A DNA stretch of 64,000 nt from Scleroderma bovista. Its lineage: Eukaryota; Basidiomycota; Agaricomycetes; Boletales; Sclerodermataceae. The translations under genes were made by a program, and so were the position numbers. The DNA is taken from NCBI GenBank assembly GCA_037178675.1, contig JAYMGJ010000263.1, forward strand, positions 1 to 64,000, given 5' to 3'. This document shows, one piece after another, positions 1-29,067 of this stretch (the stretch's first letter is position 1; each line of letters starts with the position of its first letter). A model generated the notes under the pieces. It saw nothing but the letters and a program-made list of their open reading frames with translations. It was not told the DNA's origin and ran no database searches.

Positions 1-433
1 ATGGAACTCTTCACACACTATAACTTTTCTAGAACCCTTCAGATCATCACAGATCTCTAAGAAAAGATTTTATATATCCTTTTGGGTTTTTTATTTCAAT
101 CACTTTATGTCACCCTGAGCATTATTCAGCATTCAAAATATTTTTTTCACTCTAGAACCTTCTCTAGAAGCTCAGAACCTTGGTTGACACCTGTCAGGGT
201 CTCTATAAATCCTTTTAAAGCTATATGAGGAGTTGATTCATGTAATCTTCCTTGGCAACTGCCATAAACAGATTACAGACTTTACTATTTTAAGTTATAT
301 TCCCTCAGGTCTAGCTCACCTGTCCAAATATATTATGGGAAATAGTCTAGTCTGTGACATAACTGTCTAACCACATGACTCCCTCAGTTATGGCATCTCT
401 GACTAGTTCTGACTCACACAGTCTAGTCTTTTT

Positions 434-455
434 CTGATGGGCATGACACCATCAG
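434..455 (+). other. Perfect 7-bp stem hairpin upstream of the leader TATA box
   Basis: CTGATGG (434-440) and CCATCAG (449-455) are exact reverse complements around an 8-nt loop, about 70 bp before the TATA box. It recurs at 8407, 16380 and 26374. Function unknown; it lacks a hammerhead ribozyme core. Confidence 0.4.
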
Positions 456-526
456 GAATTTTCTGATTGGTGGAATTTTTATTGTACACTTTAGGAATGG
501 ATGATGTAATCCACCCTGTCCAAGTG

Positions 527-534
527 TATATATA
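527..534 (+). promoter_or_regulatory. TATA box, unit 1 leader
   Basis: TATATATA stands about 830 bp before the RT start codon, with a purine-rich likely initiation region about 30 bp downstream. It is the only strong TATA motif in the leader. A transcript starting here would carry the proposed 700-nt leader intron. Confidence 0.5.
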
Positions 535-655
535 CTGCTCAGTTCAAGGCCTTTGCTGGAACAAAAAACTCTCCTCCCCTCTTCACTCCAGACTGGGAAC
601 TGAAGAAGCCTTTGTGCAGAAACAGACTTTGGCACTCTGTTTTCCCTCTTTGAGG

Positions 656-1355
656 GTGAGTTTTCATTTTCTGTTTCTAGTAATACTTCTACTCCTTCCT
701 CCCATATTCCTTTTTTTTGTCTGGGACTTTTATTATTTTTGTTCAAAAGGGAAACCCACCCATAGTCTCTATTTGTTGAGCTACCTTGATCCTTGGTTTT
801 ATATCCTATGGATCTCCCCCTTCCTATCCTACCTTCTTTGGGGCTGTGTCCCCATAAACAGGTGTGCTCCTTATAGGCAGCTTTGACCTTTACACCACTC
901 TTTATCCTCCTCTTCTGAACAAGCATTCTAGCTTGTATTTTTTCATTTGAGTTTCAGACACCAAAAAGTACCCTTTATTTCTCTGGTACTATTTTTCCTC
1001 TCTTCCCTTTGGAGCCCTTTGCCCAAAGTCTCTTAGAGAGTCATGTAGAACATGATTCATTTGAGAAACAGTCATACAACTCCCATGTTTTGACTAGAGA
1101 AGAGAAAGTTATGTTGTTCCTTGGATGACTTGAGCATGGCTGGCTTCCAAGGAATACTTGACTTTGGGAATTTTGCTCTAATATACCTATACTCAAAAAA
1201 CAAACCACCAAAATAAAAATATAAAAATACACAAAAACACTCAAATCTCATGAGTTTTTGTTTTATATGTGATCCACATATCTCTATAAACTTTAAACAC
1301 ACATTTCCCCTCCTCTATGTGTTTATCTTGATAACTAATCATGGTCTATTCCCAG
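656..1355 (+). other. Probable 5' leader intron, unit 1
   Basis: A consensus donor GTGAGT begins at 656. A good acceptor (TATTCCCAG, ending 1355) lies 5 nt before the ATG at 1361, with a branch-like ACTAATC about 20 nt upstream. Removal would join the TATA-proximal leader directly to the RT start. At about 700 nt it is much longer than the ~50-bp introns of the host genes. The region holds open frames on both strands (for example 467-886 plus and 423-926 minus) that look non-coding. Equivalent positions exist in units 2 and 3. Confidence 0.45.
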
Positions 1356-1360
1356 ACAAC

Positions 1361-4084
1361 ATGGATAATCTATCTCTACCCCCCACTCCTGAACCAAATG
1401 CACCAGAAGCAGAGATTATTGACTACCTGGTCAAATCTACTGTCACTGTCAATGACAACCCCTCTGTAGCCCCCTGGCTTCTTTCAGAACTTCAGAATCA
1501 CAAGGACAGACTAATCAAAGCAGCCAAGGATGCCTATGTCCACTCTCATAATATTCAGAAAATGGCTGATAGCTTTGAACAAACCAACACTCTTCCACTG
1601 TTCATAGCCCAGATAAAATCACCCTCTGTCAACCCTCCCACACTTACTGCCCTTCAAGAACTATGGGATAAGGTCACCATCAGTTATAAAGAGCAACTCT
1701 TTAAAACTCTCATCTCTTACAAGAGAAACAAGACAGACACTCTTCTCAACATTACCTCCCCTACTGGGGAAATATCCAAAGCCTTCACTGTCTCTGTCAA
1801 GTCCCAAGAAGCTAGCCTCCTTACCTCCTCTGATAAAAGAACTCATACTAGTATCAAAAAGGAAGCTACTGCTGCTATCTCCTACTGGCTTCAACAAATC
1901 CCTCAGTGGATTGAAACTGGCCAACAGCAAGCCAAAGAAGCCATTACCAAAGGAGAAGCTAAAAGTAAAGCTTTAGCTGAACAATCTGAGAGTGATGCTC
2001 TTGCCAATAATGTACATCTCCCCTCCTCTTCTTTACTCCTTACTCACCCTATCATTGAAGGAGAAAAAACCTCAGAAAAAATTCAGACCAACTCCATACA
2101 CAAGAGGAGTTCCAAAGAGAGGAAGAGGTGGTCACTTCACCAGGGGCAGAGGTTCCTACAACAGAAACTAGTCAATAATAGGAGAAAGTCTAAACTCCAA
2201 TTTAGATTACAAAAAGATTCTGTTGATACCCTATTTGATTTCTCACTTCAAATCAAAAATCTGAACTCCATTGGTGTGGCATATACTGAAGTACACAATA
2301 TATCAAGCATTCATTTAAGCCAAGAAGCACTTAACATCCTTGCTCTTGGATATAAATTTGTCTTGACACCAAGAATCATTACTTCTCTTATAGATGATTC
2401 TATGTCAGACTTTAGCAGAAGAACCAAACTCAGATACATATTTAAAGATGAACAAAATACTAAACCATTATATTGGATACCATCCAAATGGTCACCTCCT
2501 TTTGATCAAATACCCTTTCAATTGGATGAGGCTCTTACCTCTCTTAAACAAATCCTACTACATAAATCTCAATATGACTCTCATCCAAATTTTTCTAAAA
2601 AACAAATGACCATTCTAAATTCCATTCTTACCAACCCTGAAATTATGGTCATCACTGCAGACAAAAATCTTGGTTATGTTATAGTTGACATATCCTGGTA
2701 TGAAAAAACTTGTCTAGAACATCTTAACTCCTCTTCCTACAAAAAAGTATCTGATGTATTTTTACTCAATGATCATGGCATGTCTTTTACTTCTTCCCTC
2801 TTCAGAGAACTCTGTGACCAAGTCAATTATGCCTCCAAGCATTATCTCATCTCTACAGAAGAAGCTAAATGGATCTGTCAAAAAGAGGTCTTTACACCTT
2901 CTAAATTTTATATTCTAGCTAAAATCCATAAACAACCCATTAAAGGGAGACCAATTGTACCAAGCATGACATGGCTAACTTTCCATCTCTCAGAATGGAT
3001 TGCCAATCAATTAAATCCTCTGGTTCTTAACCACTGCAAAGATGTATTGAAAGACACTACTCAATTACTTCAGGATCTACACCAACTCAATCAAAACAAA
3101 GTGTGCACTAAAACTATTGCCTTATGTACTGCAGATGTAGAAGCTCTATATCCTAGTATGGATATTACTTTAGGCCTCACCCTTTTAAAAGGATTTCTAA
3201 ATGAAGTTCACTGGGAAACCCCCAAGAAAAGATTATTTTTATTATGGGCAACAGAATTTGTCCTTACTCAAGGATATATTGCTTTTAAAGATGATATATA
3301 CCAACAAACTAATGGAGCTGCTATGGGAAGTCCTATGATCCCTCCCTATGCCAATATATTTATGCACATGCTTGAGAAAAGACATGTACAGGAGTTAATG
3401 GCTAAACAAATTATTATTCTCTATAAGAGATTCATTGATGATGTATTCATTATTTTTAACAAAGGATTCTCTCATGAACTACTCATCTCAAATACTTTTA
3501 ACTCACTTCATCCTGCCCTAAAACTCCTCTTCTCCAAACCATCTCATACACAAGATTTTCTTGACATAACTATCTTTCTGAATCATCAAAAATCTGTGAT
3601 TGAGACTGTCACTTTTCAAAAGCCCATGAACAAATATACCTACCTTCCATATCACTCCTTTCATACCCATAGTATGAAAACTGGATTTATCAAAGGAGAA
3701 GTCATTAGATATGCCAGAACCTGCTCCAGAAAAAAGGACTTCAATAGAATGTGTACATTATTTACCCTCAGATTACAAAGAAGAGGATATCCCATTGATG
3801 TTATCAAGAAACAAGTTTCAGAAGTAAAATACTCTGACAGAGCTAAATTTCTCTTATACAAAAACAAGGTCAAAGATAAAATCCCATTTATCTTCAAAAT
3901 CCTTCACAATCAACAAATTCCTCACCACTTCCTCAGACAGAAACTGAATAAATTCTCTAGAGTAATTCAACAAAACATCCCTAATCTTCCTAACACTCTA
4001 AAAGAAAAAATCACTCTGTGCTACAGTCTACCTCCTAGACTTCATAACAAAATTCTATCTGCCAGAAAAAAGAAAGGTTTCTAA
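1361..4084 (+). CDS. Endonuclease-deficient Penelope-like reverse transcriptase, unit 1
   Basis: A 907-aa RNA-dependent DNA polymerase. I start at ATG 1361 because an acceptor-like CAG ends 6 nt before it; the frame is open back to 1250, but those 37 residues look like intron read-through. Residues 1-290 are a family-specific, partly basic N-terminus. Then come PLE-typical blocks: the HNIS...LGYKFVLTP region (about 311), ADKNLG (434), KIHK...RPIVPS (521-534), motif A ADVEALYPSMD (Asp592), motif B QTNGAAMGSP, motif C FIDDVF (Asp693, Asp694), FLDITIF (about 733) and a thumb with LPYHSFH. The chain ends in LPPRLHNKILSARKKKGF, where canonical PLEs would continue into GIY-YIG, so it belongs with EN(-) PLEs such as Coprina/Athena, which are thought to prime on free chromosome ends. 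All Arg codons I checked are AGA/AGG. Confidence 0.88.
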   Translation: MDNLSLPPTPEPNAPEAEIIDYLVKSTVTVNDNPSVAPWLLSELQNHKDRLIKAAKDAYVHSHNIQKMADSFEQTNTLPLFIAQIKSPSVNPPTLTALQELWDKVTISYKEQLFKTLISYKRNKTDTLLNITSPTGEISKAFTVSVKSQEASLLTSSDKRTHTSIKKEATAAISYWLQQIPQWIETGQQQAKEAITKGEAKSKALAEQSESDALANNVHLPSSSLLLTHPIIEGEKTSEKIQTNSIHKRSSKERKRWSLHQGQRFLQQKLVNNRRKSKLQFRLQKDSVDTLFDFSLQIKNLNSIGVAYTEVHNISSIHLSQEALNILALGYKFVLTPRIITSLIDDSMSDFSRRTKLRYIFKDEQNTKPLYWIPSKWSPPFDQIPFQLDEALTSLKQILLHKSQYDSHPNFSKKQMTILNSILTNPEIMVITADKNLGYVIVDISWYEKTCLEHLNSSSYKKVSDVFLLNDHGMSFTSSLFRELCDQVNYASKHYLISTEEAKWICQKEVFTPSKFYILAKIHKQPIKGRPIVPSMTWLTFHLSEWIANQLNPLVLNHCKDVLKDTTQLLQDLHQLNQNKVCTKTIALCTADVEALYPSMDITLGLTLLKGFLNEVHWETPKKRLFLLWATEFVLTQGYIAFKDDIYQQTNGAAMGSPMIPPYANIFMHMLEKRHVQELMAKQIIILYKRFIDDVFIIFNKGFSHELLISNTFNSLHPALKLLFSKPSHTQDFLDITIFLNHQKSVIETVTFQKPMNKYTYLPYHSFHTHSMKTGFIKGEVIRYARTCSRKKDFNRMCTLFTLRLQRRGYPIDVIKKQVSEVKYSDRAKFLLYKNKVKDKIPFIFKILHNQQIPHHFLRQKLNKFSRVIQQNIPNLPNTLKEKITLCYSLPPRLHNKILSARKKKGF

Positions 4085-4087
4085 AGA

Positions 4088-5050
4088 ATGGAACTACCAT
4101 CACATCTTGATCTTTCTTCCTGGTTGAGTCAAACAATATTTTCCAGAACCAATCAACTCCTTCATGATTTAGAAATAAACATGATACAGGAAATGCATAC
4201 TTACCTATCTGAGAGGCATATTAAACATAAACAACTACCCCTACATGTCAAAAAAGACCACCTTAAAACCCATATTACTGCCCTCACATCAGGCTTAGAA
4301 CAAAAGCTGCTTCATGATATAGACCAACTTTTCACTACTACTACCAAACTCACTCTCAACATGAAGCTTCTTTCTGACAAACCACATAAATTTAACTTCA
4401 GAAGTATCTCTCCTATTCCCAGATCTCTAGCCCATCTGTTCTCACAATCAAATATTTATAATCACCTGGGTTCATCCCTTAACAGTTTGGTCTTTCTTGA
4501 TCTAGAAACTGATGGTCTTGACAAAAACTGTAATATCCTCTCTATCAGTATTCTCAAAGCATCCACTTGGAATTCAACTAAAGAAATCACCCTTACTCCT
4601 CTTTTGAATACTTTTGTCAAGCCTCATCCTAAATATATGGTTGATGCCACCAAACCTGCATTTAAAATCAACAAAATCACACAAGATAATATAGACTCAT
4701 GCAATACTTCCTTGGCAGATATTGCTTATAAAATCAATAGTATCCTTAGCACACACACTGCTGTTGGATTTAATATCCAGAGATTTGATATTCCAATCTT
4801 ACAAAGCAATCTCAACAGGCTTAACTTCACTTTGAAGTACAGTCAAATCCTGGATTTATATCTCCTTAATCAGAGATTTACCAAAAACAATCTCTCATCT
4901 GTTCTTGACAAATTTCATTGCTATAAATTAGCTGATAATGAAGCACACAATTCCAGTCATGATGCTGAAGCATGCATTAGACTTCTAGCAGCTATGGAAT
5001 CTCAATACCACTTTGTTAAAAATACTTGTTCCATACCTCTATCTAAATAA
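4088..5050 (+). CDS. DEDDh 3'-5' exonuclease of the retroelement, unit 1
   Basis: A 320-aa protein. Residues 1-130 match nothing I recognise; 135-310 form a DnaQ/TREX-like exonuclease fold. ExoI is FLDLETDGL (Asp138, Glu140), ExoII is GFNIQRFDIP (Asp234), ExoIII is HNSSHDAEA (His287, Asp292, spacing H-x4-D). All five catalytic residues of the DEDDh class are present, so it should be active. It lies in the same frame as the RT with only TAA AGA between, so it could be made by stop read-through as an RT fusion or by re-initiation. Exonuclease ORFs are known from giant telomeric PLEs of rotifers (terminons), there described, as I recall, as DEDDy; here the ExoIII histidine makes it DEDDh. A role in trimming 3' ends before priming or in proofreading is inference. 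Confidence 0.85.
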   Translation: MELPSHLDLSSWLSQTIFSRTNQLLHDLEINMIQEMHTYLSERHIKHKQLPLHVKKDHLKTHITALTSGLEQKLLHDIDQLFTTTTKLTLNMKLLSDKPHKFNFRSISPIPRSLAHLFSQSNIYNHLGSSLNSLVFLDLETDGLDKNCNILSISILKASTWNSTKEITLTPLLNTFVKPHPKYMVDATKPAFKINKITQDNIDSCNTSLADIAYKINSILSTHTAVGFNIQRFDIPILQSNLNRLNFTLKYSQILDLYLLNQRFTKNNLSSVLDKFHCYKLADNEAHNSSHDAEACIRLLAAMESQYHFVKNTCSIPLSK

Positions 5051-5151
5051 AGATACCACTCTCCAAATCATATTTGTTGATTGACAAAATCCATTTAAAG
5101 AGAACCTCTATCAAACCACCATATATATAAAAAAGAACTGGCATATAAATC

Positions 5152-5540
5152 CTGACTACCCCATACCTGTTAACTGAAAAAAGGATAATCCTTGCATAAC
5201 TTAACCAACCCCTCACCTTTTAACTATATATAGTCTATGACTACCCCATACCTGTTAACTGAAAAGAGGATAATCCCTGCATACCTTAACCAACCCCTCA
5301 CCTGTTAACTGGATACAATCCATGATTACCCCATACCTGTTAACTGAAAGGATAATCCCTGCATACTCTAACCAACCCCTCACCTGTTAACTGGTTACAA
5401 TCCATGACTACCCCATACCTGTTAACCAAAAAGAGGATAATCCCTGCATACCTTAACCAACCCCCCACTGGTTAACTATATATATATAAATTCATAACCA
5501 CCCCATACCTGAAAAAAAAGATAATCCCTGCACATCAACT
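5152..5540 (+). repeat. ~80-bp degenerate tandem repeat after the exonuclease, unit 1
   Basis: Five imperfect copies of a C-rich, G-poor motif containing CCCCATACCTGTTAACTGA, GGATAATCCCTGCATA and TTAACCAACCCCTCACC. The complementary strand carries repeated GGGG/GG runs and short GGTTAAGG words that look telomere-like, but there is no true telomeric array. It begins about 100 bp after the exonuclease stop. Confidence 0.8.
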
Positions 5541-5927
5541 CCTCACTGTATACTTCAATCCAATTCATATCTACTTATCCTATATATGGGGCTTTAAAAA
5601 TTTCTATCAGTCAAACTCAAACCAGGATCCTTCATAACAATACCTGGCATTACAAAAATGCTCTGTTATAAGAATACCTACCCTGTCAGGTTTTGTCATA
5701 TCATGTCTCTTTTTTCTTTTTGGTTCAGAGATAAAAGATAAAAAAATATTTTTACTCTGACACACCATTTTAACAGAGATTGATCACTAGCCAATCCTAG
5801 CTACAGTCATCTAACCACTCTTGTCAAACTTTCTGTGACATTTACCAAATCATTCATGTCATAATCTCTCTGACAGTACACTCTGCCAACATTCAGCCAG
5901 ATAAATTTGTCATAATAAAATACATGA

Positions 5928-6186
5928 CACAACTTCCAGTCTACTCATCCCTGACTTACTCCTTAAGGATAAAATACTTTACACACTGGTGTCACAACTT
6001 CCAGTCTATCCATCCTACCTTACCCTTTAAGGATAAATACCTTACACATTGGTGTCATAACTTCCAGTCTATCCATCCCTGACTTACTCCTTAAAGTTAA
6101 ATACCTTACACACTGGTGTCATAACTTCTAGTCTACTCATCCCTGACTAACTCTTTAAGGATAAATATCTTACACATTGTTGACAC
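5928..6186 (+). repeat. ~64-bp tandem repeat, four copies, unit 1
   Basis: Four copies of 64-65 bp, each starting CACAACTTCCAGTCTA or CATAACTTC and containing CTTAAGGATAAATAC and ACACTGGTGTCA. It lies between the exonuclease and the third ORF. No coding potential seen. Confidence 0.8.
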
Positions 6187-6366
6187 AACCTATCAACTCA
6201 ACCCTGGTACAATCAACTCTTTTAAGAAATATTACACAATCACCCCTTCTAAAAAGTTACATATGTAACACATGACACATCTTTCTCCTTTTATAAAAAA
6301 TCACACCACTTTTTTATTCCTCAAACATATAAAATCACTCAACCCTTCAGGAGAATCTCTCACACC

Positions 6367-6582
6367 ATGGCCCAACTCCCCTTTAACATCTCTGGCTGTC
6401 ATTATTATCCTCACTCTTTGGATCCAACCTTTCATACTCCCCCTCATGTTCCCATCAACAGAACACTCTGGTTTGACATACAGGTCCAGATGGAATCTGT
6501 AGCCATTGCAAAAATTAATCTGGATACTATGAGTTATTGTAGGGTACTTTTTGGTTGTCTGTATATAAAACTCTATTTTTGA
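6367..6582 (+). pseudogene. Third ORF, truncated by deletion, unit 1
   Basis: Starts at the ATG used by the unit 3 third ORF and shares its first 57 residues, to TMSY. The 2022-bp deletion then joins it to downstream sequence that ends after 14 unrelated residues. The product family is not recognised. Confidence 0.6.
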
Positions 6583-7974
6583 AAAAAATACCAGCTTCTG
6601 TGATCATATCAGAAGAGGCTAGCATACTCTCCAATGTCATTAATACATGCTAGTTAAGAGAAATGAACATAGACTTCCCCAGTCTCTAACTAAGTGGGAT
6701 ATATCCTCTATTGTAATCTTATAAAGAGTGCCTATTAGTTTAGGACAGATCTGTATGTTATATCCTGTCTTCCAAAGTGTTGACTAGTTAGGTATATGTG
6801 TAGGCTACACATATATTTCAAAGGGTTGTATCACTTCATGTCTGATCTTGCCAAGATACTCTAATAAAAGACATCTCCCTTGACATTTCTCTTTTGGGAT
6901 AACCCATAATTCCTGGGTTGTTTATAGCTGAGCTTTTCTTTGTCTCACTCCTGAGCCAATAGAATACATCAAGTCTGAGGATTTAATCCACAGCTTCCAC
7001 CAAATCTCTCCTCTCATTTTAAAAGGACTGTGTTTACTGTTTAAATATTATATTCTGGTGACACTCAAATAATCACTTTCACTCTGTCAGAACAATAGAT
7101 TCAATACTAGGTAATCTGTTTGATAACACTGCATATTAGCAGGACTTCAAAATATCCATGCTCTCTACCTATGGTAGTGTCAGCTAAAATGGATGTTTTT
7201 GTTAGAGTTTCTGTAAAATATCAGTTTAAAAATCTTTCAGAGAAAAACCCTTATATTGATAGAGCTAAACCAGCATCTATTTCTCTCTCAGACCTGTTCT
7301 ACAGGATAAAGAGCATTTATTCTTTAGCTGGACAAGTATAGACTGTCCTTTGAGCCATCAGTGAATTAACTATGTAGAGATTACTCTACTTAAATAGCAT
7401 AAAGAAAAAGATAATTTCTGCTCACAGGGTTAACTTGATCCCTGGTTTGTCAGTCTGACCAGTTGTCTCAACTGAATAGGATTTGTCCTATTATTGCAGC
7501 ATCAGAAGAAATTTCTTTGCTCAAAGGGATAACTTGATCCTTTATTTGTCAGTCTATCTAGTTATACTAACTGTTTGTACTAGAAGTGATGGTTCATTCT
7601 TGACCTCTAATAAATAAACACTCTCAAGTGAACACCTATACAAATCCCATACCAATTCACACCTTCACTTATAATTTAAATTAGGAAATATAATTTCCTA
7701 CATAAACCACTCTTTATCAGAAACCAGTCCCCCCCTCTCCTGTGTACCAACAACCCATACTCTAATCAAATCATGTATTTGATGCCCACCACTCAATTGA
7801 AGTGTTCACTCCTTCCAGTGAGATTTTTTCTAAAAAGGATACAGGGTGCATGATGTGGTAATCATTGCAGCAGCCTCTGACCAAAAGCCTCAAGGTCAGA
7901 CCCTGTTCAAATTTTCCCCTTTTAGATTTAATTGAACTATAATAGCACATGTGCTAAAAGCCTTTACCAAGGCT
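6583..7974 (+). other. Non-coding tail of unit 1
   Basis: No convincing gene. An imperfect ~100-bp duplication (about 7404-7565, marked by GATAACTTGATCC and TTTGTCAGTCT) is present, and overlapping AATAAA signals lie at 7609-7618. A 73-codon open frame at 7120-7341 begins with TTG and is conserved only because the units are nearly identical. The same region occurs at 14556-15947 and 24508-25941. Confidence 0.5.
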
Positions 7975-8499
7975 ATGGAACTCTTCACACACTATAACTT
8001 TTCTAGAACCCTTCAGATCATCACAGATCTCTAAGAAAAGATTTTATATATCCTTTTGGGTTTTTATTTCAATCACTTTATGTCACCCTGAGCATTATTC
8101 AGCATTCAAAATATTTTTTTCACTCTAGAACCTTCTCTAGAAGCTCAGAACCTTGGTTGACACCTGTCAGGGTCTCTATAAATCCTTTTAAAGCTATATG
8201 AGGAGTTGATTCATGTAATCTTCCTTGGCAACTGCCATAAACAGATTACAGACTTTACTATTTTAAGTTATATTCCCTCAGGTCTAGCTCACCTGTCCAA
8301 ATATATTATGGGAAATAGTCTAGTCTGTGACATAACTGTCTAACCACATGACTCCCTCAGTTATGGCATCTCTGACTAGTTCTGACTCACACAGTCTAGT
8401 CTTTTTCTGATGGGCATGACACCATCAGGAATTTTCTGATTGGTGGAATTTTTATTGTACACTTTAGGAATGGATGATGTAATCCACCCTGTCCAAGTG

Positions 8500-8507
8500 T
8501 ATATATA
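8500..8507 (+). promoter_or_regulatory. TATA box, unit 2 leader
   Basis: Exact copy of the unit 1 TATA box and its surroundings. Confidence 0.5.
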
Positions 8508-9333
8508 CTGCTCAGTTCAAGGCCTTTGCTGGAACAAAAAACTCTCCTCCCCTCTTCACTCCAGACTGGGAACTGAAGAAGCCTTTGTGCAGAAACAGAC
8601 TTTGGCACTCTGTTTTCCCTCTTTGAGGGTGAGTTTTCATTTTCTGTTTCTAGTAATACTTCTACTCCTTCCTCCCATATTCCTTTTTTTTGTCTGGGAC
8701 TTTTATTATTTTTGTTCAAAAGGGAAACCCACCCATAGTCTCTATTTGTTGAGCTACCTTGATCCTTGGTTTTATATCCTATGGATCTCCCCCTTCCTAT
8801 CCTACCTTCTTTGGGGCTGTGTCCCCATAAACAGGTGTGCTCCTTATAGGCAGCTTTGACCTTTACACCACTCTTTATCCTCCTCTTCTGAACAAGCATT
8901 CTAGCTTGTATTTTTTCATTTGAGTTTCAGACACCAAAAAGTACCCTTTATTTCTCTGGTACTATTTTTCCTCTCTTCCCTTTGGAGCCCTTTGCCCAAA
9001 GTCTCTTAGAGAGTCATGTAGAACATGATTCATTTGAGAAACAGTCATACAACTCCCATGTTTTGACTAGAGAAGAGAAAGTTATGTTGTTCCTTGGATG
9101 ACTTGAGCATGGCTGGCTTCCAAGGAATACTTGACTTTGGGAATTTTGCTCTAATATACCTATACTCAAAAAACAAACCACCAAAATAAAAATATAAAAA
9201 TACACAAAAACACTCAAATCTCATGAGTTTTTGTTTTATATGTGATCCACATATCTCTATAAACTTTAAACACACATTTCCCCTCCTCTATGTGTTTATC
9301 TTGATAACTAATCATGGTCTATTCCCAGACAAC

Positions 9334-12057: not shown

Positions 12058-12060
12058 AGA

Positions 12061-13023
12061 ATGGAACTACCATCACATCTTGATCTTTCTTCCTGGTTGA
12101 GTCAAACAATATTTTCCAGAACCAATCAACTCCTTCATGATTTAGAAATAAACATGATACAGGAAATGCATACTTACCTATCTGAGAGGCATATTAAACA
12201 TAAACAACTACCCCTACATGTCAAAAAAGACCACCTTAAAACCCATATTACTGCCCTCACATCAGGCTTAGAACAAAAGCTGCTTCATGATATAGACCAA
12301 CTTTTCACTACTACTACCAAACTCACTCTCAACATGAAGCTTCTTTCTGACAAACCACATAAATTTAACTTCAGAAGTATCTCTCCTATTCCCAGATCTC
12401 TAGCCCATCTGTTCTCACAATCAAATATTTATAATCACCTGGGTTCATCCCTTAACAGTTTGGTCTTTCTTGATCTAGAAACTGATGGTCTTGACAAAAA
12501 CTGTAATATCCTCTCTATCAGTATTCTCAAAGCATCCACTTGGAATTCAACTAAAGAAATCACCCTTACTCCTCTTTTGAATACTTTTGTCAAGCCTCAT
12601 CCTAAATATATGGTTGATGCCACCAAACCTGCATTTAAAATCAACAAAATCACACAAGATAATATAGACTCATGCAATACTTCCTTGGCAGATATTGCTT
12701 ATAAAATCAATAGTATCCTTAGCACACACACTGCTGTTGGATTTAATATCCAGAGATTTGATATTCCAATCTTACAAAGCAATCTCAACAGGCTTAACTT
12801 CACTTTGAAGTACAGTCAAATCCTGGATTTATATCTCCTTAATCAGAGATTTACCAAAAACAATCTCTCATCTGTTCTTGACAAATTTCATTGCTATAAA
12901 TTAGCTGATAATGAAGCACACAATTCCAGTCATGATGCTGAAGCATGCATTAGACTTCTAGCAGCTATGGAATCTCAATACCACTTTGTTAAAAATACTT
13001 GTTCCATACCTCTATCTAAATAA
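12061..13023 (+). CDS. DEDDh 3'-5' exonuclease, unit 2
   Basis: Identical in sequence to the unit 1 exonuclease, and again separated from the RT by TAA AGA ATG in one frame, so the single-stop arrangement is maintained across copies. Confidence 0.85.
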   Translation: MELPSHLDLSSWLSQTIFSRTNQLLHDLEINMIQEMHTYLSERHIKHKQLPLHVKKDHLKTHITALTSGLEQKLLHDIDQLFTTTTKLTLNMKLLSDKPHKFNFRSISPIPRSLAHLFSQSNIYNHLGSSLNSLVFLDLETDGLDKNCNILSISILKASTWNSTKEITLTPLLNTFVKPHPKYMVDATKPAFKINKITQDNIDSCNTSLADIAYKINSILSTHTAVGFNIQRFDIPILQSNLNRLNFTLKYSQILDLYLLNQRFTKNNLSSVLDKFHCYKLADNEAHNSSHDAEACIRLLAAMESQYHFVKNTCSIPLSK

Positions 13024-13124
13024 AGATACCACTCTCCAAATCATATTTGTTGATTGACAAAATCCATTTAAAGAGAACCTCTATCAAACCACCATATATA
13101 TAAAAAAGAACTGGCATATAAATC

Positions 13125-13513
13125 CTGACTACCCCATACCTGTTAACTGAAAAAAGGATAATCCTTGCATAACTTAACCAACCCCTCACCTTTTAACTAT
13201 ATATAGTCTATGACTACCCCATACCTGTTAACTGAAAAGAGGATAATCCCTGCATACCTTAACCAACCCCTCACCTGTTAACTGGATACAATCCATGATT
13301 ACCCCATACCTGTTAACTGAAAGGATAATCCCTGCATACTCTAACCAACCCCTCACCTGTTAACTGGTTACAATCCATGACTACCCCATACCTGTTAACC
13401 AAAAAGAGGATAATCCCTGCATACCTTAACCAACCCCCCACTGGTTAACTATATATATATAAATTCATAACCACCCCATACCTGAAAAAAAAGATAATCC
13501 CTGCACATCAACT
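13125..13513 (+). repeat. ~80-bp tandem repeat after the exonuclease, unit 2
   Basis: Copy of the unit 1 array at the equivalent position, five imperfect units. Confidence 0.8.
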
Positions 13514-13900
13514 CCTCACTGTATACTTCAATCCAATTCATATCTACTTATCCTATATATGGGGCTTTAAAAATTTCTATCAGTCAAACTCAAACCAGGA
13601 TCCTTCATAACAATACCTGGCATTACAAAAATGCTCTGTTATAAGAATACCTACCCTGTCAGGTTTTGTCATATCATGTCTCTTTTTTCTTTTTGGTTCA
13701 GAGATAAAAGATAAAAAAATATTTTTACTCTGACACACCATTTTAACAGAGATTGATCACTAGCCAATCCTAGCTACAGTCATCTAACCACTCTTGTCAA
13801 ACTTTCTGTGACATTTACCAAATCATTCATGTCATAATCTCTCTGACAGTACACTCTGCCAACATTCAGCCAGATAAATTTGTCATAATAAAATACATGA

Positions 13901-16472: not shown

Positions 16473-16480
16473 TATATATA
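16473..16480 (+). promoter_or_regulatory. TATA box, unit 3 leader
   Basis: Exact copy of the unit 1 TATA box. A transcript started here and ending near 26727 would span the full long form and carry about 230 nt of terminal redundancy. Confidence 0.5.
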
Positions 16481-17306
16481 CTGCTCAGTTCAAGGCCTTT
16501 GCTGGAACAAAAAACTCTCCTCCCCTCTTCACTCCAGACTGGGAACTGAAGAAGCCTTTGTGCAGAAACAGACTTTGGCACTCTGTTTTCCCTCTTTGAG
16601 GGTGAGTTTTCATTTTCTGTTTCTAGTAATACTTCTACTCCTTCCTCCCATATTCCTTTTTTTTGTCTGGGACTTTTATTATTTTTGTTCAAAAGGGAAA
16701 CCCACCCATAGTCTCTATTTGTTGAGCTACCTTGATCCTTGGTTTTATATCCTATGGATCTCCCCCTTCCTATCCTACCTTCTTTGGGGCTGTGTCCCCA
16801 TAAACAGGTGTGCTCCTTATAGGCAGCTTTGACCTTTACACCACTCTTTATCCTCCTCTTCTGAACAAGCATTCTAGCTTGTATTTTTTCATTTGAGTTT
16901 CAGACACCAAAAAGTACCCTTTATTTCTCTGGTACTATTTTTCCTCTCTTCCCTTTGGAGCCCTTTGCCCAAAGTCTCTTAGAGAGTCATGTAGAACATG
17001 ATTCATTTGAGAAACAGTCATACAACTCCCATGTTTTGACTAGAGAAGAGAAAGTTATGTTGTTCCTTGGATGACTTGAGCATGGCTGGCTTCCAAGGAA
17101 TACTTGACTTTGGGAATTTTGCTCTAATATACCTATACTCAAAAAACAAACCACCAAAATAAAAATATAAAAATACACAAAAACACTCAAATCTCATGAG
17201 TTTTTGTTTTATATGTGATCCACATATCTCTATAAACTTTAAACACACATTTCCCCTCCTCTATGTGTTTATCTTGATAACTAATCATGGTCTATTCCCA
17301 GACAAC

Positions 17307-20030: not shown

Positions 20031-20033
20031 AGA

Positions 20034-20996
20034 ATGGAACTACCATCACATCTTGATCTTTCTTCCTGGTTGAGTCAAACAATATTTTCCAGAACCAATC
20101 AACTCCTTCATGATTTAGAAATAAACATGATACAGGAAATGCATACTTACCTATCTGAGAGGCATATTAAACATAAACAACTACCCCTACATGTCAAAAA
20201 AGACCACCTTAAAACCCATATTACTGCCCTCACATCAGGCTTAGAACAAAAGCTGCTTCATGATATAGACCAACTTTTCACTACTACTACCAAACTCACT
20301 CTCAACATGAAGCTTCTTTCTGACAAACCACATAAATTTAACTTCAGAAGTATCTCTCCTATTCCCAGATCTCTAGCCCATCTGTTCTCACAATCAAATA
20401 TTTATAATCACCTGGGTTCATCCCTTAACAGTTTGGTCTTTCTTGATCTAGAAACTGATGGTCTTGACAAAAACTGTAATATCCTCTCTATCAGTATTCT
20501 CAAAGCATCCACTTGGAATTCAACTAAAGAAATCACCCTTACTCCTCTTTTGAATACTTTTGTCAAGCCTCATCCTAAATATATGGTTGATGCCACCAAA
20601 CCTGCATTTAAAATCAACAAAATCACACAAGATAATATAGACTCATGCAATACTTCCTTGGCAGATATTGCTTATAAAATCAATAGTATCCTTAGCACAC
20701 ACACTGCTGTTGGATTTAATATCCAGAGATTTGATATTCCAATCTTACAAAGCAATCTCAACAGGCTTAACTTCACTTTGAAGTACAGTCAAATCCTGGA
20801 TTTATATCTCCTTAATCAGAGATTTACCAAAAACAATCTCTCATCTGTTCTTGACAAATTTCATTGCTATAAATTAGCTGATAATGAAGCACACAATTCC
20901 AGTCATGATGCTGAAGCATGCATTAGACTTCTAGCAGCTATGGAATCTCAATACCACTTTGTTAAAAATACTTGTTCCATACCTCTATCTAAATAA
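20034..20996 (+). CDS. DEDDh 3'-5' exonuclease, unit 3
   Basis: Identical to the other two copies and in frame with the RT across TAA AGA. The catalytic set (two residues in FLDLETDGL, the Asp of QRFDIP, the His and Asp of HNSSHDAEA) is complete. Confidence 0.85.
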   Translation: MELPSHLDLSSWLSQTIFSRTNQLLHDLEINMIQEMHTYLSERHIKHKQLPLHVKKDHLKTHITALTSGLEQKLLHDIDQLFTTTTKLTLNMKLLSDKPHKFNFRSISPIPRSLAHLFSQSNIYNHLGSSLNSLVFLDLETDGLDKNCNILSISILKASTWNSTKEITLTPLLNTFVKPHPKYMVDATKPAFKINKITQDNIDSCNTSLADIAYKINSILSTHTAVGFNIQRFDIPILQSNLNRLNFTLKYSQILDLYLLNQRFTKNNLSSVLDKFHCYKLADNEAHNSSHDAEACIRLLAAMESQYHFVKNTCSIPLSK

Positions 20997-21097
20997 AGAT
21001 ACCACTCTCCAAATCATATTTGTTGATTGACAAAATCCATTTAAAGAGAACCTCTATCAAACCACCATATATATAAAAAAGAACTGGCATATAAATC

Positions 21098-21485
21098 CTG
21101 ACTACCCCATACCTGTTAACTGAAAAAAGGATAATCCTTGCATAACTTAACCAACCCCTCACCTTTTAACTATATATAGTCTATGACTACCCCATACCTG
21201 TTAACTGAAAAGAGGATAATCCCTGCATACCTTAACCAACCCCTCACCTGTTAACTGGATACAATCCATGATTACCCCATACCTGTTAACTGAAAGGATA
21301 ATCCCTGCATACTCTAACCAACCCCTCACCTGTTAACTGGTTACAATCCATGACTACCCCATACCTGTTAACCAAAAAGAGGATAATCCCTGCATACCTT
21401 AACCAACCCCCCACTGGTTAACTATATATATATAAATTCATAACCACCCCATACCTGAAAAAAAGATAATCCCTGCACATCAACT
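21098..21485 (+). repeat. ~80-bp tandem repeat after the exonuclease, unit 3
   Basis: Same five-copy array as in units 1 and 2 but one A shorter in the last copy. Confidence 0.8.
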
Positions 21486-21872
21486 CCTCACTGTATACTT
21501 CAATCCAATTCATATCTACTTATCCTATATATGGGGCTTTAAAAATTCCTATCAGTCAAACTCAAACCAGGATCCTTCATAACAATACCTGGCATTACAA
21601 AAATGCTCTGTTATAAGAATACCTACCCTGTCAGGTTTTGTCATATCATGTCTCTTTTTTCTTTTTGGTTCAGAGATAAAAGATAAAAAAATATTTTTAC
21701 TCTGACACACCATTTTAACAGAGATTGATCACTAGCCAATCCTAGCTACAGTCATCTAACCACTCTTGTCAAACTTTCTGTGACATTTACCAAATCATTC
21801 ATGTCATAATCTCTCTGACAGTACACTCTGCCAACATTCAGCCAAATAAATTTGTCATAATAAAATACATGA

Positions 21873-22131
21873 CACAACTTCCAGTCTACTCATCCCTGAC
21901 TTACTCCTTAAGGATAAAATACTTTACACACTGGTGTCACAACTTCCAGTCTATCCATCCTACCTTACCCTTTAAGGATAAATACCTTACACATTGGTGT
22001 CATAACTTCCAGTCTATCCATCCCTGACTTACTCCTTAAAGTTAAATACCTTACACACTGGTGTCATAACTTCTAGTCTACTCATCCCTGACTAACTCTT
22101 TAAGGATAAATATCTTACACATTGTTGACAC
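21873..22131 (+). repeat. ~64-bp tandem repeat, unit 3
   Basis: Same four-copy array as in units 1 and 2. Confidence 0.8.
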
Positions 22132-22311
22132 AACCTATCAACTCAACCCTGGTACAATCAACTCTTTTAAGAAATATTACACAATCACCCCTTCTAAAAA
22201 GTTACATATGTAACACATGACACATCTTTCTCCTTTTATAAAAAATCACACCACTTTTTTATTCCTCAAACATATAAAATCACTCAACCCTTCAGGAGAA
22301 TCTCTCACACC

Positions 22312-22572
22312 ATGGCCCAACTCCCCTTTAACATCTCTGGCTGTCATTATTATCCTCACTCTTTGGATCCAACCTTTCATACTCCCCCTCATGTTCCCAT
22401 CAACAGAACACTCTGGTTTGACATACAGGTCCAGATGGAATCTGTAGCCATTGCAAAAATTAATCTGGATACTATGAGTTATTGGCTTGAAATCACTCAT
22501 CCACAAAACAACAATAACATCTACAGCAACAGACCTATCACCCATAGGAAAGTACCCCCCACTTTTCTATAA
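22312..22572 (+). CDS. Third ORF of the retroelement, 5' part (long form only)
   Basis: 86 codons starting MAQLPFNISG and containing RTLWFDIQVQ, NLDTMSYWLEITHP and a run of Asn. No family recognised. It is followed 30 bp later by a second open stretch in the same frame, with an acceptor-like CTACTCACAG ending at 22601. A simple GT donor near 22552 would not restore the frame, so I cannot give a confident splice. It may be one exon of a ~225-aa protein or a separate small protein. It lies between the 64-bp repeats and the 154-bp repeats. Confidence 0.4.
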   Translation: MAQLPFNISGCHYYPHSLDPTFHTPPHVPINRTLWFDIQVQMESVAIAKINLDTMSYWLEITHPQNNNNIYSNRPITHRKVPPTFL

Positions 22573-22601
22573 AAAGAATATTAAATTTATTCTACTCACA
22601 G

Positions 22602-23046
22602 GGAAGCTGCAACTCTCACATTTGTGTCAACCCTAGGACACAATGATGCCATTGATTGGTTTCACTTCATGGTCTATAACATCAGGTATTATTTTACCTA
22701 TCTATTACTATTATACCAACTCATTATTCCACAAAAAAGAGAATATCTTCACAACTACTCTGCTGTCATTACCAGTTATGTCCTTCTTGCAACCCACTAT
22801 CCTGCTCAATTCCCCCTCTCTCTCCTGAGAGAAAGCTGGAGCAAAATCTCTACCAAAGTATTCAAAGACATCTTACTTTTTGATGTCAATGGTAATCTTA
22901 AATATGTACCCATTCTTGGTTGCAGATTTACCATGTCAGAAGATGTAGGAAGAGGTTGGTATGATCTAGACATGTTTCTTAATTCTGATGAAGGATTAGC
23001 ACAACTTAGAGATTTGTCTTCCTTTGACAATATTTTCTCTTTTTAA
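22602..23046 (+). CDS. Third ORF of the retroelement, 3' part (long form only)
   Basis: An open stretch of about 147 codons ending at TAA 23044-23046. The first ATG-independent residues read AATLTFVSTLGHNDAIDWF, so it probably depends on splicing from the exon upstream. It has a hydrophobic, aromatic-rich segment (YYFTYLLLLYQLII), then ITSYVLLATHYP and a better-conserved-looking half with DVNGNLKYVPILG and GWYDLDMFLNSDEG. I do not recognise a domain. Absence from units 1 and 2 shows it is not needed in every copy for amplification. Confidence 0.4.
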
Positions 23047-23448
23047 CTTGATGTCACATTTTGTTCATACTCTTTTACTTGAGTATCCAGACTGTTCTCA
23101 CCCTTATAAATCAGACCACTGGTAACACCACACTTCTGCAGTGATTAAATAAAATCACACATATTAACTTTGAAGTATAGCTGAAAACTATTACTTGATC
23201 ATATTCAAGAACACACTTTGTGCTCACCATACTCAAAATAACAAAAAAGGATTTATCCCTGCCTTTAAAACCACATATCACACTCATAAAGGATCTTGAC
23301 AACCAGTAATCACATACAAAGGATTAAAATATCCCTTCATCACCAGTATCATTACCTACACTCAAAAAATAGTGTAACTCTCATACTGACCAAAAAAGTC
23401 ACCTATATACTGGTCTTTTATCATAAAAACACATGAAACACTGGTATC

Positions 23449-24330
23449 ATCCTCTTTTTTTGAAAATATAACTCTATAGCCTTTGCTACAGATCTGACAA
23501 GCCTTGTCTATACAATGGAACTCTATAGAACCATATACAACTGCCCTTTCACTGACTAAAAGTCACCTACATGTTGTGTCTTTATTCTATAAAACACTGA
23601 TAAACAAATATAAAATCACTATTGTCACCCTCTATTATTGCAGTTCAACTCTATAACCCTGGCTACATATTTATGCAAGCCTTATTTACACTGCTGAAGT
23701 CCCCTCACTGACTAAAAGTCACCTACATATTATGTTTTTGCTCTATAAACACTGATAAACAAACATGAAATCATTGTTATCACCCTCTATTATTGCAGTA
23801 CAACTCTATAACCCTGGCTACATATTTCCATAAGCCTTATTTACACTGCTGAAGTCCCCTCACTGGCTAAAAGTCACCTACACATTGTGTTTTTGCTCTA
23901 TAAACACTGATAAACAACACAAAATCACTGTTATCACCCTCTACTATTGCAGTACAACTCTATAACCTTGGCTACATATTCATACAAGCCTTATTTACAC
24001 TGCTGAAGTCCCCTCACTGGCTAAAAGTCACTTATTTATTGTGTTTTTGCTATACAAACACTGATAAACAACATAAAAACACTGTTATCACCCTCTACTA
24101 TTGCAGTACAACTCTATAACCCTGGCTACATATTTATATCAGCCTTATTTACACTGCTGAAGTCCCTCCACTGACTAATAGTCACCTACATATTGTGTTT
24201 TTGCTATATAAACACTGATAAACAACTAAAAATCACTGTTATCACTCTCATTTATTGCAGTACAACTCTATATCCTTGGCTACATATTCATATAAGCCTT
24301 ATGTACACTGCTAAAGTCACCAACACACAT
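23449..24330 (+). repeat. ~154-bp tandem repeat in the long-form block
   Basis: About six copies, the first diverged. Repeats of ATCACCCTCTA, TTGCAGTACAACTCTATA, GCCTTATTTACACTGCTGAAG and CTATAAACACTGATAAACA recur near 23627, 23782, 23937, 24091 and 24244. No coding potential seen. Confidence 0.8.
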
Positions 24331-24424
24331 AAATAATGTTGTGTTATTGTTCTGTAACAACAATGATCACCAGTTACCATTGTTCATCCATTTTAGGATA
24401 TTTGGCTTTGTTTGTCCCTCTGGG

Positions 24425-24432
24425 TATATAAG
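24425..24432 (+). promoter_or_regulatory. TATA box at the end of the long-form block
   Basis: TATATAAG in a pyrimidine-rich setting, 50 bp before an ATG at 24475 that opens a 24-codon frame crossing the deletion breakpoint. Lost from units 1 and 2. It may be a second promoter driving the following unit. Confidence 0.45.
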
Positions 24433-25941
24433 AAGCAGCTCCCTCCCCCTCCTTCTTTCCCTCCAACCACTACCATGGTTGTACCCAACAGTACTACTAG
24501 AAACAGTAGGGTACTTTTTGGTTGTCTGTATATAAAACTCTATTTTTGAAAAAAATACCAGCTTCTGTGATCATATCAGAAGAGGCTAGCATACTCTCCA
24601 ATGTCATTAATACATGCTAGTTAAGAGAAATGAACATAGACTTCCCCAGTCTCTAACTAAGTGGGATATATCCTCTATTGTAATCTTATAAAGAGTGCCT
24701 ATTAGTTTAGGACAGATCTGTATGTTATATCCTGTCTTCCAAAGTGTTGACTAGTTAGGTATATGTGTAGGCTACACATATATTTCAAAGGGTTGTATCA
24801 CTTCATGTCTGATCTTGCCAAGATACTCTAATAAAAGACATCTCCCTTGACATTTCTCTTTTGGGATAACCCATAATTCCTGGGTTGTTTATAGCTGAGC
24901 TTTTCTTTGTCTCACTCCTGAGCCAATAGAATACATCAAGTCTGAGGATTTAATCCACAGCTTCCACCAAATCTCTCCTCTCATTTTAAAAGGACTGTGT
25001 TTACTGTTTAAATATTATATTCTGGTGACACTCAAATAATCACTTTCACTCTGTCAGAACAATAGATTCAATACTAGGTAATCTGTTTGATAACACTGCA
25101 TATTAGCAGGACTTCAAAATATCCATGCTCTCTACCTATGGTAGTGTCAGCTAAAATGGATGTTTTTGTTAGAGTTTCTGTAAAATATCAGTTTAAAAAT
25201 CTTTCAGAGAAAAACCCTTATATTGATAGAGCTAAACCAGCATCTATTTCTCTCTCAGACCTGTTCTACAGGATAAAGAGCATTTATTCTTTAGCTGGAC
25301 AAGTATAGACTGTCCTTTGAGCCATCAGTGAATTAACTATGTAGAGATTACTCTACTTAAATAGCATAAAGAAAAAGATAATTTCTGCTCACAGGGTTAA
25401 CTTGATCCCTGGTTTGTCAGTCTGACCAGTTGTCTCAACTGAATAGGATTTGTCCTATTATTGCAGCATCAGAAGAAATTTCTTTGCTCAAAGGGATAAC
25501 TTGATCCTTTATTTGTCAGTCTATCTAGTTATACTAACTGTTTGTACTAGAAGTGATGGTTCATTCTTGACCTCTAATAAATAAACACTCTCAAGTGAAC
25601 ACCTATACAAATCCCATACCAATTCACACCTTCACTTATAATTTAAATTAGGAAATATAATTTCCTACATAAACCACTCTTTATCAGAAACCAGTCCCCC
25701 CCTCTCCTGTGTACCAACAACCCATACTCTAATCAAATCATGTATTTGATGCCCACCACTCAATTGAAGTGTTCACTCCTTCCAGTGAGATTTTTTCTAA
25801 AAAGGATACAGGGTGCATGATGTGGTAATCATTGCAGCAGCCTCTGACCAAAAGCCTCAAGGTCAGACCCTGTTCAAATTTTCCCCTTTTAGATTTAATT
25901 GAACTATAATAGCACATGTGCTAAAAGCCTTTACCAAGGCT

Positions 25942-26727
25942 ATGGAACTCTTCACACACTATAACTTTTCTAGAACCCTTCAGATCATCACAGATCTCTA
26001 AGAAAAGATTTTATATATCCTTTTGGGTTTTTATTTCAATCACTTTATGTCACCCTGAGCATTATTCAGCATTCAAAATATTTTTTTCACTCTAGAACCT
26101 TCTCTAGAAGCTCAGAACCTTGGTTGACACCTGTCAGGGTCTCTATAAATCCTTTTAAAGCTATATGAGGAGTTGATTCATGTAATCTTCCTTGGCAACT
26201 GCCATAAACAGATTACAGACTTTACTATTTTAAGTTATATTCCCTCAGGTCTAGCTCACCTGTCCAAATATATTATGGGAAATAGTCTAGTCTGTGACAT
26301 AACTGTCTAACCACATGACTCCCTCAGTTATGGCATCTCTGACTAGTTCTGACTCACACAGTCTAGTCTTTTTCTGATGGGCATGACACCATCAGGAATT
26401 TTCTGATTGATGGAATTTTTATTGTACACTTTAGGAATGGATGATGTAATCCACCCTGTCCAAGTGTATATATACTGCTCAGTTCAAGGCCTTTGCTGGA
26501 ACAAAAAACTCTCCTCCCCTCTTCACTCCAGACTGGGAACTGAAGAAGCCTTTGTGCAGAAACAGACTTTGGCACTCTGTTTTCCCTCTTTGAGGGTGAG
26601 TTTTCATTTTCTGTTTCTAGTAATACTTCTACTCCTTCCTCCCATATTCCTTTTTTTTGTCTGGGACTTTTATTATTTTTGTTCAAAAGGGAAACCCACC
26701 CATAGTCTCTATTTGTTGAGCTACCTT
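25942..26727 (+). mobile_element. PLE-like array, partial fourth unit ending at chromosome junction
   Basis: Matches unit 1 positions 1-753 and then stops abruptly: after the shared sequence ending in GAGCTACCTT the other units continue with GATCCTTGG, while here ACTATGAATA follows. One substitution (G to A at 26409) separates it from the other copies. It contains the leader TATA box but no coding sequence. Beyond 26727 the sequence belongs to a Tnp2 transposase gene. Confidence 0.88.
26467..26474 (+). promoter_or_regulatory. TATA box, partial unit 4
   Basis: The same motif, 253 bp before the junction with the Tnp2 gene. Here it has no element gene downstream; any transcript would read antisense into the truncated transposase gene. 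Confidence 0.45.
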
Positions 26728-29067
26728 ACTATGAATAGCATAAACAACCTTCCCATGTAATTAAAGATGGAGAGAAGTGACGCACGTCTGCAAGCATGTT
26801 GTGCAGTGTCGTGAGCTCGTGGTTTGGCCGTAATATCTTGCTTTGAATCCATATGCTGTAAAAGTGCGTCTTGACTAGACCTGAGCACGGAAGATGAGTT
26901 CAAGATTGGCAGAATGATGGGAACTCACCTAGAAACAAATTGTGCATTGGGTCTATCACAATTTGGCGTACCAAATCGAAGTATGGGAGGCGCGAAAGCT
27001 GAGAGTACCGCGTGGCAAACTCTTTCACAAAGTTCTTCTTTGCGTTTGGTGTAGCAAGTTTTCGATATTCTTCACCTAAACGACGCTGCTCTGTGTCGGT
27101 CCGAGGCAGAAAAGCTTATGAATTTATGGTGAGCCGGGTAGAGTAAAAGTGATTGACCGCATACCTCCATGCTGAAAGGCGCTCACATCCCCCTTACTTG
27201 ATATGGATATCCAACAGTCTGTACAGTAATAGGTGTGCGAGTGTGATGCGAATCCTCCTATCTTATGTGCGGCGGGCTTGTCGCATACAACTGCAACTAG
27301 TGCAACACGGACAAGTCGTCCTACAGTATATGAGTAGGTATGTACACAAAAAGATAACGTAGACTTGCCTTGAGGCTGAGACTCAGTCGGGACTTTGATA
27401 CCATACTTCCAGAGCCGCAAGAGATCAGAGACAATAGGTCGAAGGTAGCGCTGTACCTCGTCGGGTGTTTGTTCCTTTGGACCGGGCATAATACTTGTGC
27501 ACATCAAATTTGCTGTGCGATATCTGTCAAGGATGGAGTTACGTGTAAGCAAGAGTAAGTATAACCAAGTTACCTGTACTCGGGTGGTAGATTGCAAATC
27601 GAGAATGAAGTGGGAGCCGATGAGTGAGATGGTGCGATATTGCTCCGAATGTATGAAAACCTATAACATCGTGCTTTCAGTCATGACATCAATGAGAAAA
27701 ACATACCAATCGATGCCCAGGTTCACACCCAAACGAAGTTCTCCGTTAGGACCATGGCGTTCATCTACTTTGTTCGAGAAGAATAGCTTGCCATCTGGAC
27801 CTTTGAGTTTGGAACGACAAATGTCGCCATCGAATATGTCCACATATGTGCCAGAGGTGCGCGGCTTGACTCGCCACTCGTCAAGGGTAGCCTCAATGCC
27901 AGGGATCTTGAGGATGGAGGCGATCTGCTCAGAGAGAGGAAGGTAAGGGTATTTAACAACAGGCGTCTTCAGTGCACGGGCATTACCCCGCTGAGTCTGC
28001 CCTGGAAGGAAAAGATCAACATTGCAGGAGGTGCAAGTATCATGACAAAGTGGTGACGTGGCTGGTGGGTATACATCGTGACAAGTCGGGCAGACCGGTA
28101 AAGTGTGGACAGGTTTATCGACTCCGAGTAGGCGATTCCCGGACTGGAGAGTGGTGAATGGAGGGGGGGTGGATGGGTTGAAAAACAGTAAAACGAGGGT
28201 GAAAATGGCCAAGAGCGCATTGCAGGCGATGCGTGGGAGGTGAAACTGGAGATGGAGCCAGGATACGACAGCATGGATGACAGAAATATGCTCTGGGATG
28301 TCAGCAAAGTCGATGTTGTCGGATCGCACCTCTTCATCAATTAAGAATGGATCGGGATCGTCTTCATCGACTCCATGATGGGGAACTTCATCTGGTGTCT
28401 CTGCTTCAAAAGCATCGTCAATTTCGTCATGATGGAACCAAGAACCATCTTCATAGGACAGATTTCCGAGCTCCGGGGACAGGCCATCACCCAGGGGACC
28501 GTTCTGCCCCTGACAAACCTCCTCTGCGATCTGTGCAAGCTGGCGTTCAAAAGCCCGGTGTTCTGGGTCAGAGGGAAGATGGCGAGCTTCAAATGAAGTG
28601 AGAGGGCGAGAGCCAGCAGACGTTCTGGCGTTGTACTCCTGGAAGTAATCGACAGCAGACGCGAGGGCCTCTGGGCTATGGAAATTGGGCCCTAAGTTCG
28701 GTAGTGCACTGCCAAAGGTCAGAATGTCAACGTCCTCGCCTGTCAGAGTACCATGGTCGAGCATTTCTTGTTCAACAGGGCTAGTTGAAATGCGTGGTGG
28801 ATCTGGGAACACGACATCGGGAGAAAGTGGTGGTGAAGGTGCACATATAGGGTGCGGGAAGGTTCGTGAGACCGGACCAATGTCTTCAACAGCCGTTGGC
28901 ATAACCCTGTTCCCTGTAACACGCAGCTGCGACTGTGTCACCATAGTTTTTTCACGTAGATCTGATCGTGTATGGCTAGCTGCGACATGAGCCGGTACAA
29001 GCGCCCCACGGCATTCATGAGTTGTGCAATAGCATTGCCGAAGCCTTGTAGTGTTGCGACCCGGCAT
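26728..29067 (-). pseudogene. Tnp2-type (CACTA-like) transposase, 3' end cut by the retroelement array
   Basis: Large basidiomycete Tnp2-family transposase read on the minus strand. Start taken at 29067, before a CYCTTHECRGALV Cys-rich motif. Exons 29067-27707, 27660-27574, 27523-27369, 27320-27165, 27114-26929 and 26880-26728 keep one frame across introns of 48-58 bp; the intron 27368-27321 is GC-AG. Signatures: FDGDICR, LGVNLGIDWF, SIMPGPKEQ, ALVAVVCDKPAAHKIGGF, YYCTDCWIS, ATRYSQLSRLPYF and VIDPMHNLFLG. After LHNMLADV the frame slips, but YMGRL in the next frame matches the expected continuation, so host sequence reaches the junction. The C-terminal half is missing. A transmembrane-like segment (LLAIFTLVLLFF) sits in the N-terminal part. 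Confidence 0.85.

Follow-up and report, generated by a model that had tools for sequence, protein, structure and literature searches.

We analysed positions 1–64,000 of the forward strand of Scleroderma bovista contig JAYMGJ010000263.1 (assembly GCA_037178675.1), and this whole stretch of 64,000 nucleotides is referred to below as the window. Region 1–26727 is a head-to-tail array of units of about 7,973 bp, starting at positions 1, 7975, 15948 and 25942, and it does not contain a single CpG (CG) dinucleotide. Each of the three complete units carries two long open reading frames (ORFs), ORF1 for a predicted reverse transcriptase (RT) and ORF2 for a predicted exonuclease. Judged from these features, the tandem units are copies of a telomerase-like retrotransposon that looks autonomous; it is Penelope-like and lacks the endonuclease. 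The array and the adjoining host DNA contain the following features.

1–7974, forward: unit 1, CpG-free array unit
1361–4084, forward: ORF1 of unit 1, 907 amino acids (aa), predicted telomerase-fold RT, Penelope-like
4088–5050, forward: ORF2 of unit 1, 320 aa, predicted DEDDh (RNase T/DnaQ-like) 3'-5' exonuclease
5148–5532, forward: 3' noncoding tandem repeats of 85 bp, recurring from 13121 and 21094
7590–7936, forward: 3' stretch, of which pieces 7590–7670 and 7828–7936 have relics elsewhere in the genome
7975–15947, forward: unit 2
9334–12057, forward: ORF1 of unit 2
12061–13023, forward: ORF2 of unit 2
15948–25941, forward: unit 3, long form, 2,021 bp longer
17307–20030, forward: ORF1 of unit 3
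20034–20996, forward: ORF2 of unit 3
22485–24505, forward: insert found in unit 3 only, 2,021 bp, CpG-free
23549–24318, forward: five 154-bp repeats inside the insert
25942–26727, forward: partial unit 4, the right end of the array being unit position 787
26728–28200, forward: host repeat adjoining the array, with copies on contigs C197 and C403

Absence of CpG

The direct count is zero both in 1–26727 and in 1–26780, the first CG of the window being at 26781, that is, 54 bp beyond the array end. To the right of the array (26781–64000) there are 1,498 CG, with an observed-to-expected ratio (o/e) of 0.74. Thus the CpG-free 26.8 kb of the preliminary description stands, and so does its expectation of several hundred CpG by chance; comparable counts in array and flank, named there as evidence to the contrary, were not observed. 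Since the near-identical copies are not independent, the expectation is based on one copy of the unit (unit 1) together with the insert, about 10 kb, where 243 and 55 CG, respectively, are expected (about 298 in total) at the 36.4% G+C of the array. In 500 shuffles of each part (5' region, ORF1, ORF2, 3' region, insert), the minimum was 14 CG in each. In ORF1 and ORF2 together there are no NCG codons, and all 39 arginine codons counted are AGA or AGG. CHG sites (CAG/CTG) are present in the array. The composition of 1–7973 is asymmetric, with 23.5% C against 13.0% G on the coding strand.

The units are nearly identical, as noted originally. Compared with unit 1, unit 2 shows nothing but one single-base gap, and unit 3, leaving the insert aside, has two substitutions plus two gaps of one base each; in unit 4 there is one substitution and also one gap. 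All three copies have the 907-aa and 320-aa frames open and without any difference. Because position 1 of the contig already falls within the array, the unit has an arbitrary phase. The insert gave a single match in a search of the genome. In the long unit, positions 22312–23046 hold two more small frames, of 86 and 125 aa, which may represent a single third gene, interrupted or spliced, that the short units have lost.

Coding capacity and classification

Residues D592, D693 and D694 of ORF1 are invariant across 21 aligned rows, and D138, E140, D234, H287 and D292 of ORF2 across seven; the Exo III motif H-x4-D (H287, D292) assigns ORF2 to the DEDDh rather than the DEDDy exonucleases. Two hallmarks of Penelope-like elements (PLEs) are found here, namely an RT of the telomerase/PLE kind in ORF1 and a tandem array that ends in a partial copy. 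Neither ORF1 nor ORF2 yielded a Pfam match to the GIY-YIG endonuclease at E<=1, and hence the element fits only the endonuclease-deficient group. Coprina are PLEs of this endonuclease-deficient kind. No hammerhead ribozyme was detected by Rfam (E<=5, positions 1–9000) or by one simple core pattern, which a diverged motif could escape, and no tRNA genes were found in the window.

Protein relatives of ORF1 from public genomes and metagenomes (P0001–P0020) are 35–56% identical, while scans of viral and genome contig collections with ORF1 alignments gave no DNA relatives. The scan of viral contigs with the ORF2 alignment produced one distant exonuclease locus (L042, 28%), which was not used further. 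Among described PLEs, the Athena/Terminon elements, as portrayed in PMC6431247 and PMC5408684, resemble the S. bovista element in having an RT without GIY-YIG, tandem arrays and an accessory DEDD exonuclease. However, Terminons are reported to combine exonucleases of the DEDDy type with hammerhead motifs and with telomeric repeats, whereas here the exonuclease is predicted to be DEDDh, neither motif was found, and CpG is absent.

The unit holds two isolated CCCTAA words and no TTAGGG. There is no telomeric run in it, and no exact (TTAGGG)4 anywhere in the assembly, so that the telomeres are either unassembled or of different sequence. On the left, the array runs to the contig end; on the right, it borders on a position inside a host repeat.

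Avoidance versus decay

Loss of CpG by methylation-driven decay should leave an excess of TG and CA, and we measured it by a composition-free index, TG*CA/(AG*CT). For the unit alone it amounts to 0.95, and for the unit plus insert to 1.05 (bootstrap 95% interval 0.91–1.24); the joined sequence used for the latter contains one CG created by the joining itself. The background was formed by 113 2-kb windows, a non-random set of loci picked for RT relatives together with the array's flank in the window (the one starting at 26001 includes 727 array bases). In it, the index has the median of 2.33 (range 1.36–4.32) in the ten windows with o/e 0.2–0.4, 2.38 in the ten with o/e 0.4–0.6, and 0.90 (range 0.60–1.51) in the 44 with o/e of at least 1. 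The lowest value among the 20 CpG-poor windows (o/e 0.2–0.6) is 1.36. Hence the TpG/CpA comparison suggested in the preliminary description reveals no excess in the unit. That description had also called the CpG content of the flank ordinary, which holds only in part, as 54001–60000 is a strongly depleted segment (o/e 0.26–0.35) with the index of 4.0–4.3 and runs of ACC and GTG triplets.

The same zero could arise as a mutational equilibrium, if long-lasting CpG hypermutation by the host had removed all CpG while purifying selection kept the frames, so that the CpG-free state would be a footprint and not an adaptation. In simulations (single 60-kb runs of a simple model) the equilibrium gives the index of 1.43–1.51, compared to 0.95 in the unit, and avoidance gives 1.00. 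The codons lack the excess that the equilibrium predicts as well: NCA codons number 62 of 286, against 36.5% predicted by deamination (P about 1e-7), and T precedes G in 54 of 82 cases, a share that departs from the 77% of deamination (P 0.025) but agrees with the 64% of avoidance (P 0.73). Besides, no background window has o/e below 0.2. On the other side, plain CpG-directed decay is seen in other repeats, two relic pieces of related elements described below are CpG-free too, and the index of the insert taken alone is 1.62. On balance, we consider the equilibrium an unlikely but serious alternative.

Permutation of synonymous codons (2,000 tries for each ORF) gave on average 36.5 CG in ORF1 and 11.2 in ORF2, with minima of 22 and 4, compared to none observed. 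Taken together, the low index, the codon tests and the permutation make the unit look selected against CpG, and not freshly or steadily decayed; simple methylation decay is disfavoured for the unit by the index, the codon tests and the simulation, but not for the insert alone. Thus, selection against CpG seems the better account of the origin of the CpG-free unit.

Several observations from the same tests weigh against this reading. The insert index of 1.62 is what partial decay would give. The suggestion that the element was shaped to avoid CpG is supported for the unit, where no TpG/CpA excess, few NCA codons and the permutation agree with it. The index of ORF2 is 1.24, and 2-kb windows of the array range from 0.77 to 1.55. 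The NCA codons are below the expectation of plain avoidance, too (30.3%, P 0.001), which means that the baseline is imperfect. Finally, other repeats contain CpG-free runs of 1,478 and 1,015 bases with a decay-like index (1.5 and 1.89).

Selection against CpG might also act on RNA, through a CpG-sensing decay pathway. As CpG is its own reverse complement, such selection would leave the same signature as avoidance in DNA. Still, the CpG sensor ZAP is a vertebrate protein, and UpA, often avoided together with CpG, shows just a slight deficit at codon boundaries (106 against 116.4 in ORF1 and 49 against 53.5 in ORF2). We consider the RNA-level explanation very improbable.

Genomic setting and relics

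In the genome search, full-length matches to the element were confined to JAYMGJ010000263.1. The copies of the adjoining host repeat on C197 and C403 continue across the corresponding position with no array in between, which makes the junction a site of insertion or breakage in host DNA. The contig begins inside the array and its flank is a repeat with copies at 98–99% identity, as might be the case in a false assembly join. However, the junction has no overlap in common with the uninterrupted site, the array copies differ by a few changes, and relics are present in the same genome. We regard a false join or contamination as the least probable of the explanations considered here.

The relics match unit pieces 7590–7670 and 7828–7936 with 80–85% identity at five other places. 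Two homologous relic pieces were examined and have no CG against about six expected, and the 310-bp surroundings of relics at four loci have 1, 2, 0 and 0 CG against 10–11 expected. These matches suggest that related elements lived in the S. bovista genome earlier. All five, however, sit within larger, themselves copied repeats, and may thus derive from few insertions. Within a 109-bp stretch of 85% identity, 38 bp (7850–7887) are identical between the element and the host relics; this conserved 3' core resembles a pol III-type internal promoter, and a tRNA- or pol III-like reading of it can be no more than tentative.

The relics also bear on whether the element could have arrived horizontally from another host, one with a genome or mutation regime that leaves no room for CpG, the fungus being just its present carrier. 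The confinement of full-length matches to one contig and the composition, which differs from that of the flank (36% G+C, 23.5% C, 13% G), are in line with such a transfer. The relics at five places speak against it, with the proviso about few insertions, and no nuclear genome is known to us that lacks CpG entirely at 36% G+C. Hence we consider a horizontal origin improbable.

CpG in the rest of the genome

Other repeats of the S. bovista genome decay at CpG. Exchanges between CpG and TpG or CpA account for 13 of 18 differences between the C197 and C403 copies, 5 of 10 between loci L034 and L036, 5 of 13 between L033 and L035, and 7 of 51 between L034 and L033. The CG deficiency of basidiomycete genomes caused by transposon hypermutation is reportedly a known topic, treated by Clutterbuck in 2017. 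In basidiomycetes, CpG methylation is described as being maintained by DNMT1-RFD and DNMT5, with a preference for CpG and a concentration in regions rich in transposable elements (PMC13297926). CpG-biased hypermutation is reported for an agaricomycete, Rhizoctonia solani (PMC4014442), and methylation in the black truffle likewise prefers CpG (PMC4165359). The whole S. bovista genome yielded 150 scored matches to TET/JBP dioxygenases from 159 candidates, all but one over the cut-off, and four matches to C5-methylase on three contigs, some with stops.

In the same genome, tandem RT elements on contigs C836, C653 and C247 have a related RT (best E 1.2e-27), a tandem arrangement and open frames, and we read them as probable PLEs. 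They differ from the CpG-free element in sequence (25–27% identity) and in CpG o/e, about 1.1. These and similar relatives provide the main argument against CpG avoidance as a need of such elements. For distant relatives with 25–28% identity, o/e is 1.06–1.10 in loci L004–L008, the five in which it was measured out of 29 matches besides the element; they have open frames of up to 1,351 aa, though three of the 29 contain stops. The C836 and C653 copies are 99.0% identical, in opposite orientation (this pair was left out of the CpG-transition counts), and between C247 and C653 just 10 of 57 differences over 4,568 positions are CpG transitions. Copies 1 and 2 of C653, with 72 CpG transitions among 498 differences, represent an older divergence and were left out. 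As CpG-normal relatives thrive, CpG loss is not required for the spread of such elements in this host. Relatives with normal CpG and the same activity had been named at the outset as evidence against the proposal; the distant ones measured here, with open frames and near-identical copies, count against it.

Loci L009–L014 and L017 (contigs C836, C653, C247 and C8) are tandem arrays of RT elements with normal CpG, situated close to contig ends or directly at them; by raw count, each locus contains 8–29 scattered TTAGGG/CCCTAA words. In the flank of the array, mirror-image arrays at 38337–40461 and 49408–50554, formed by a 14-bp repeat (TTGACTACCGCGGG / reverse complement) and a 159–169-bp repeat, enclose a 9-kb stretch and resemble the ends of a large DNA transposon.

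Comparison with known systems

The closest precedent is the ONSEN (ATCOPIA78) retrotransposon of Arabidopsis, whose promoter is reported to lack CG and CHG, which its authors interpret as circumventing maintenance methylation (PMC3907296). The likeness would be that of a retrotransposon without symmetric methylation sites. There, it is the LTR (long terminal repeat)/promoter that is stated to be free of both CG and CHG, whereas here the whole 8–10 kb including the genes is free of CG only; besides, the element class and the kingdom are different. Thus the principle is known for a promoter, and its application to a whole gene-bearing element would be an extension. No report of a whole CpG-free transposon was found in the open-access literature searched.

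Other transposons appear to answer methylation with proteins. Some fungal DNA transposons carry a TET/JBP dioxygenase, for which a role against methylation or hypermutation is the author's speculation (PMC12730594); they bring an enzyme acting on 5-methylcytosine, whereas the S. bovista element brings no CpG. Arabidopsis VANDAL elements are described as encoding anti-silencing proteins, VANC (PMC10398659).

Proposed explanation

The explanation we favour, and to which we give about an even chance, is that selection kept CpG out of the whole element because the host attacks repeats at CpG by methylation, mutation or both. The host would maintain CpG methylation, or mutate CpG to TpG/CpA in repeats, or do both, and selection would exclude CpG over the entire element, coding and noncoding. 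A CpG-free copy would then offer a maintenance methylase no site to copy and a CpG mutator no site to change, and as a consequence its frames would stay open and its copies identical. CpG-directed methylation or mutation would thus be the likeliest selecting agent, and the element may equally well have escaped mutation directed at CpG as silencing.

The preliminary description had favoured escape from silencing, by removal of its substrate. We infer this, too, only with reservations, as the CpG-normal distant relatives and the insert index of 1.62 go against it. In addition, a CpG-free transgene in mammalian cells is reported to be still silenced, although the silencing is not remembered (PMC1449906). 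Tentatively, and with somewhat less confidence than an even chance would imply, we suggest that a gene-bearing retrotransposon may have become invisible at the sequence level to the host defence by a purge of one dinucleotide, including all arginine codons.

If this is true, it would be a third answer of transposons to CpG methylation or mutation, beside the TET demethylase and the anti-silencing protein. In any case, the element is a natural experiment on the effects of CpG methylation and CpG mutation on transposons, offering a measurable contrast between avoidance, with no TpG/CpA excess, and decay, with a large one. As CpG-free, CpG-normal and CpG-decayed elements occur side by side in one genome, S. 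bovista could be used to ask whether the loss of sites suffices for escape.

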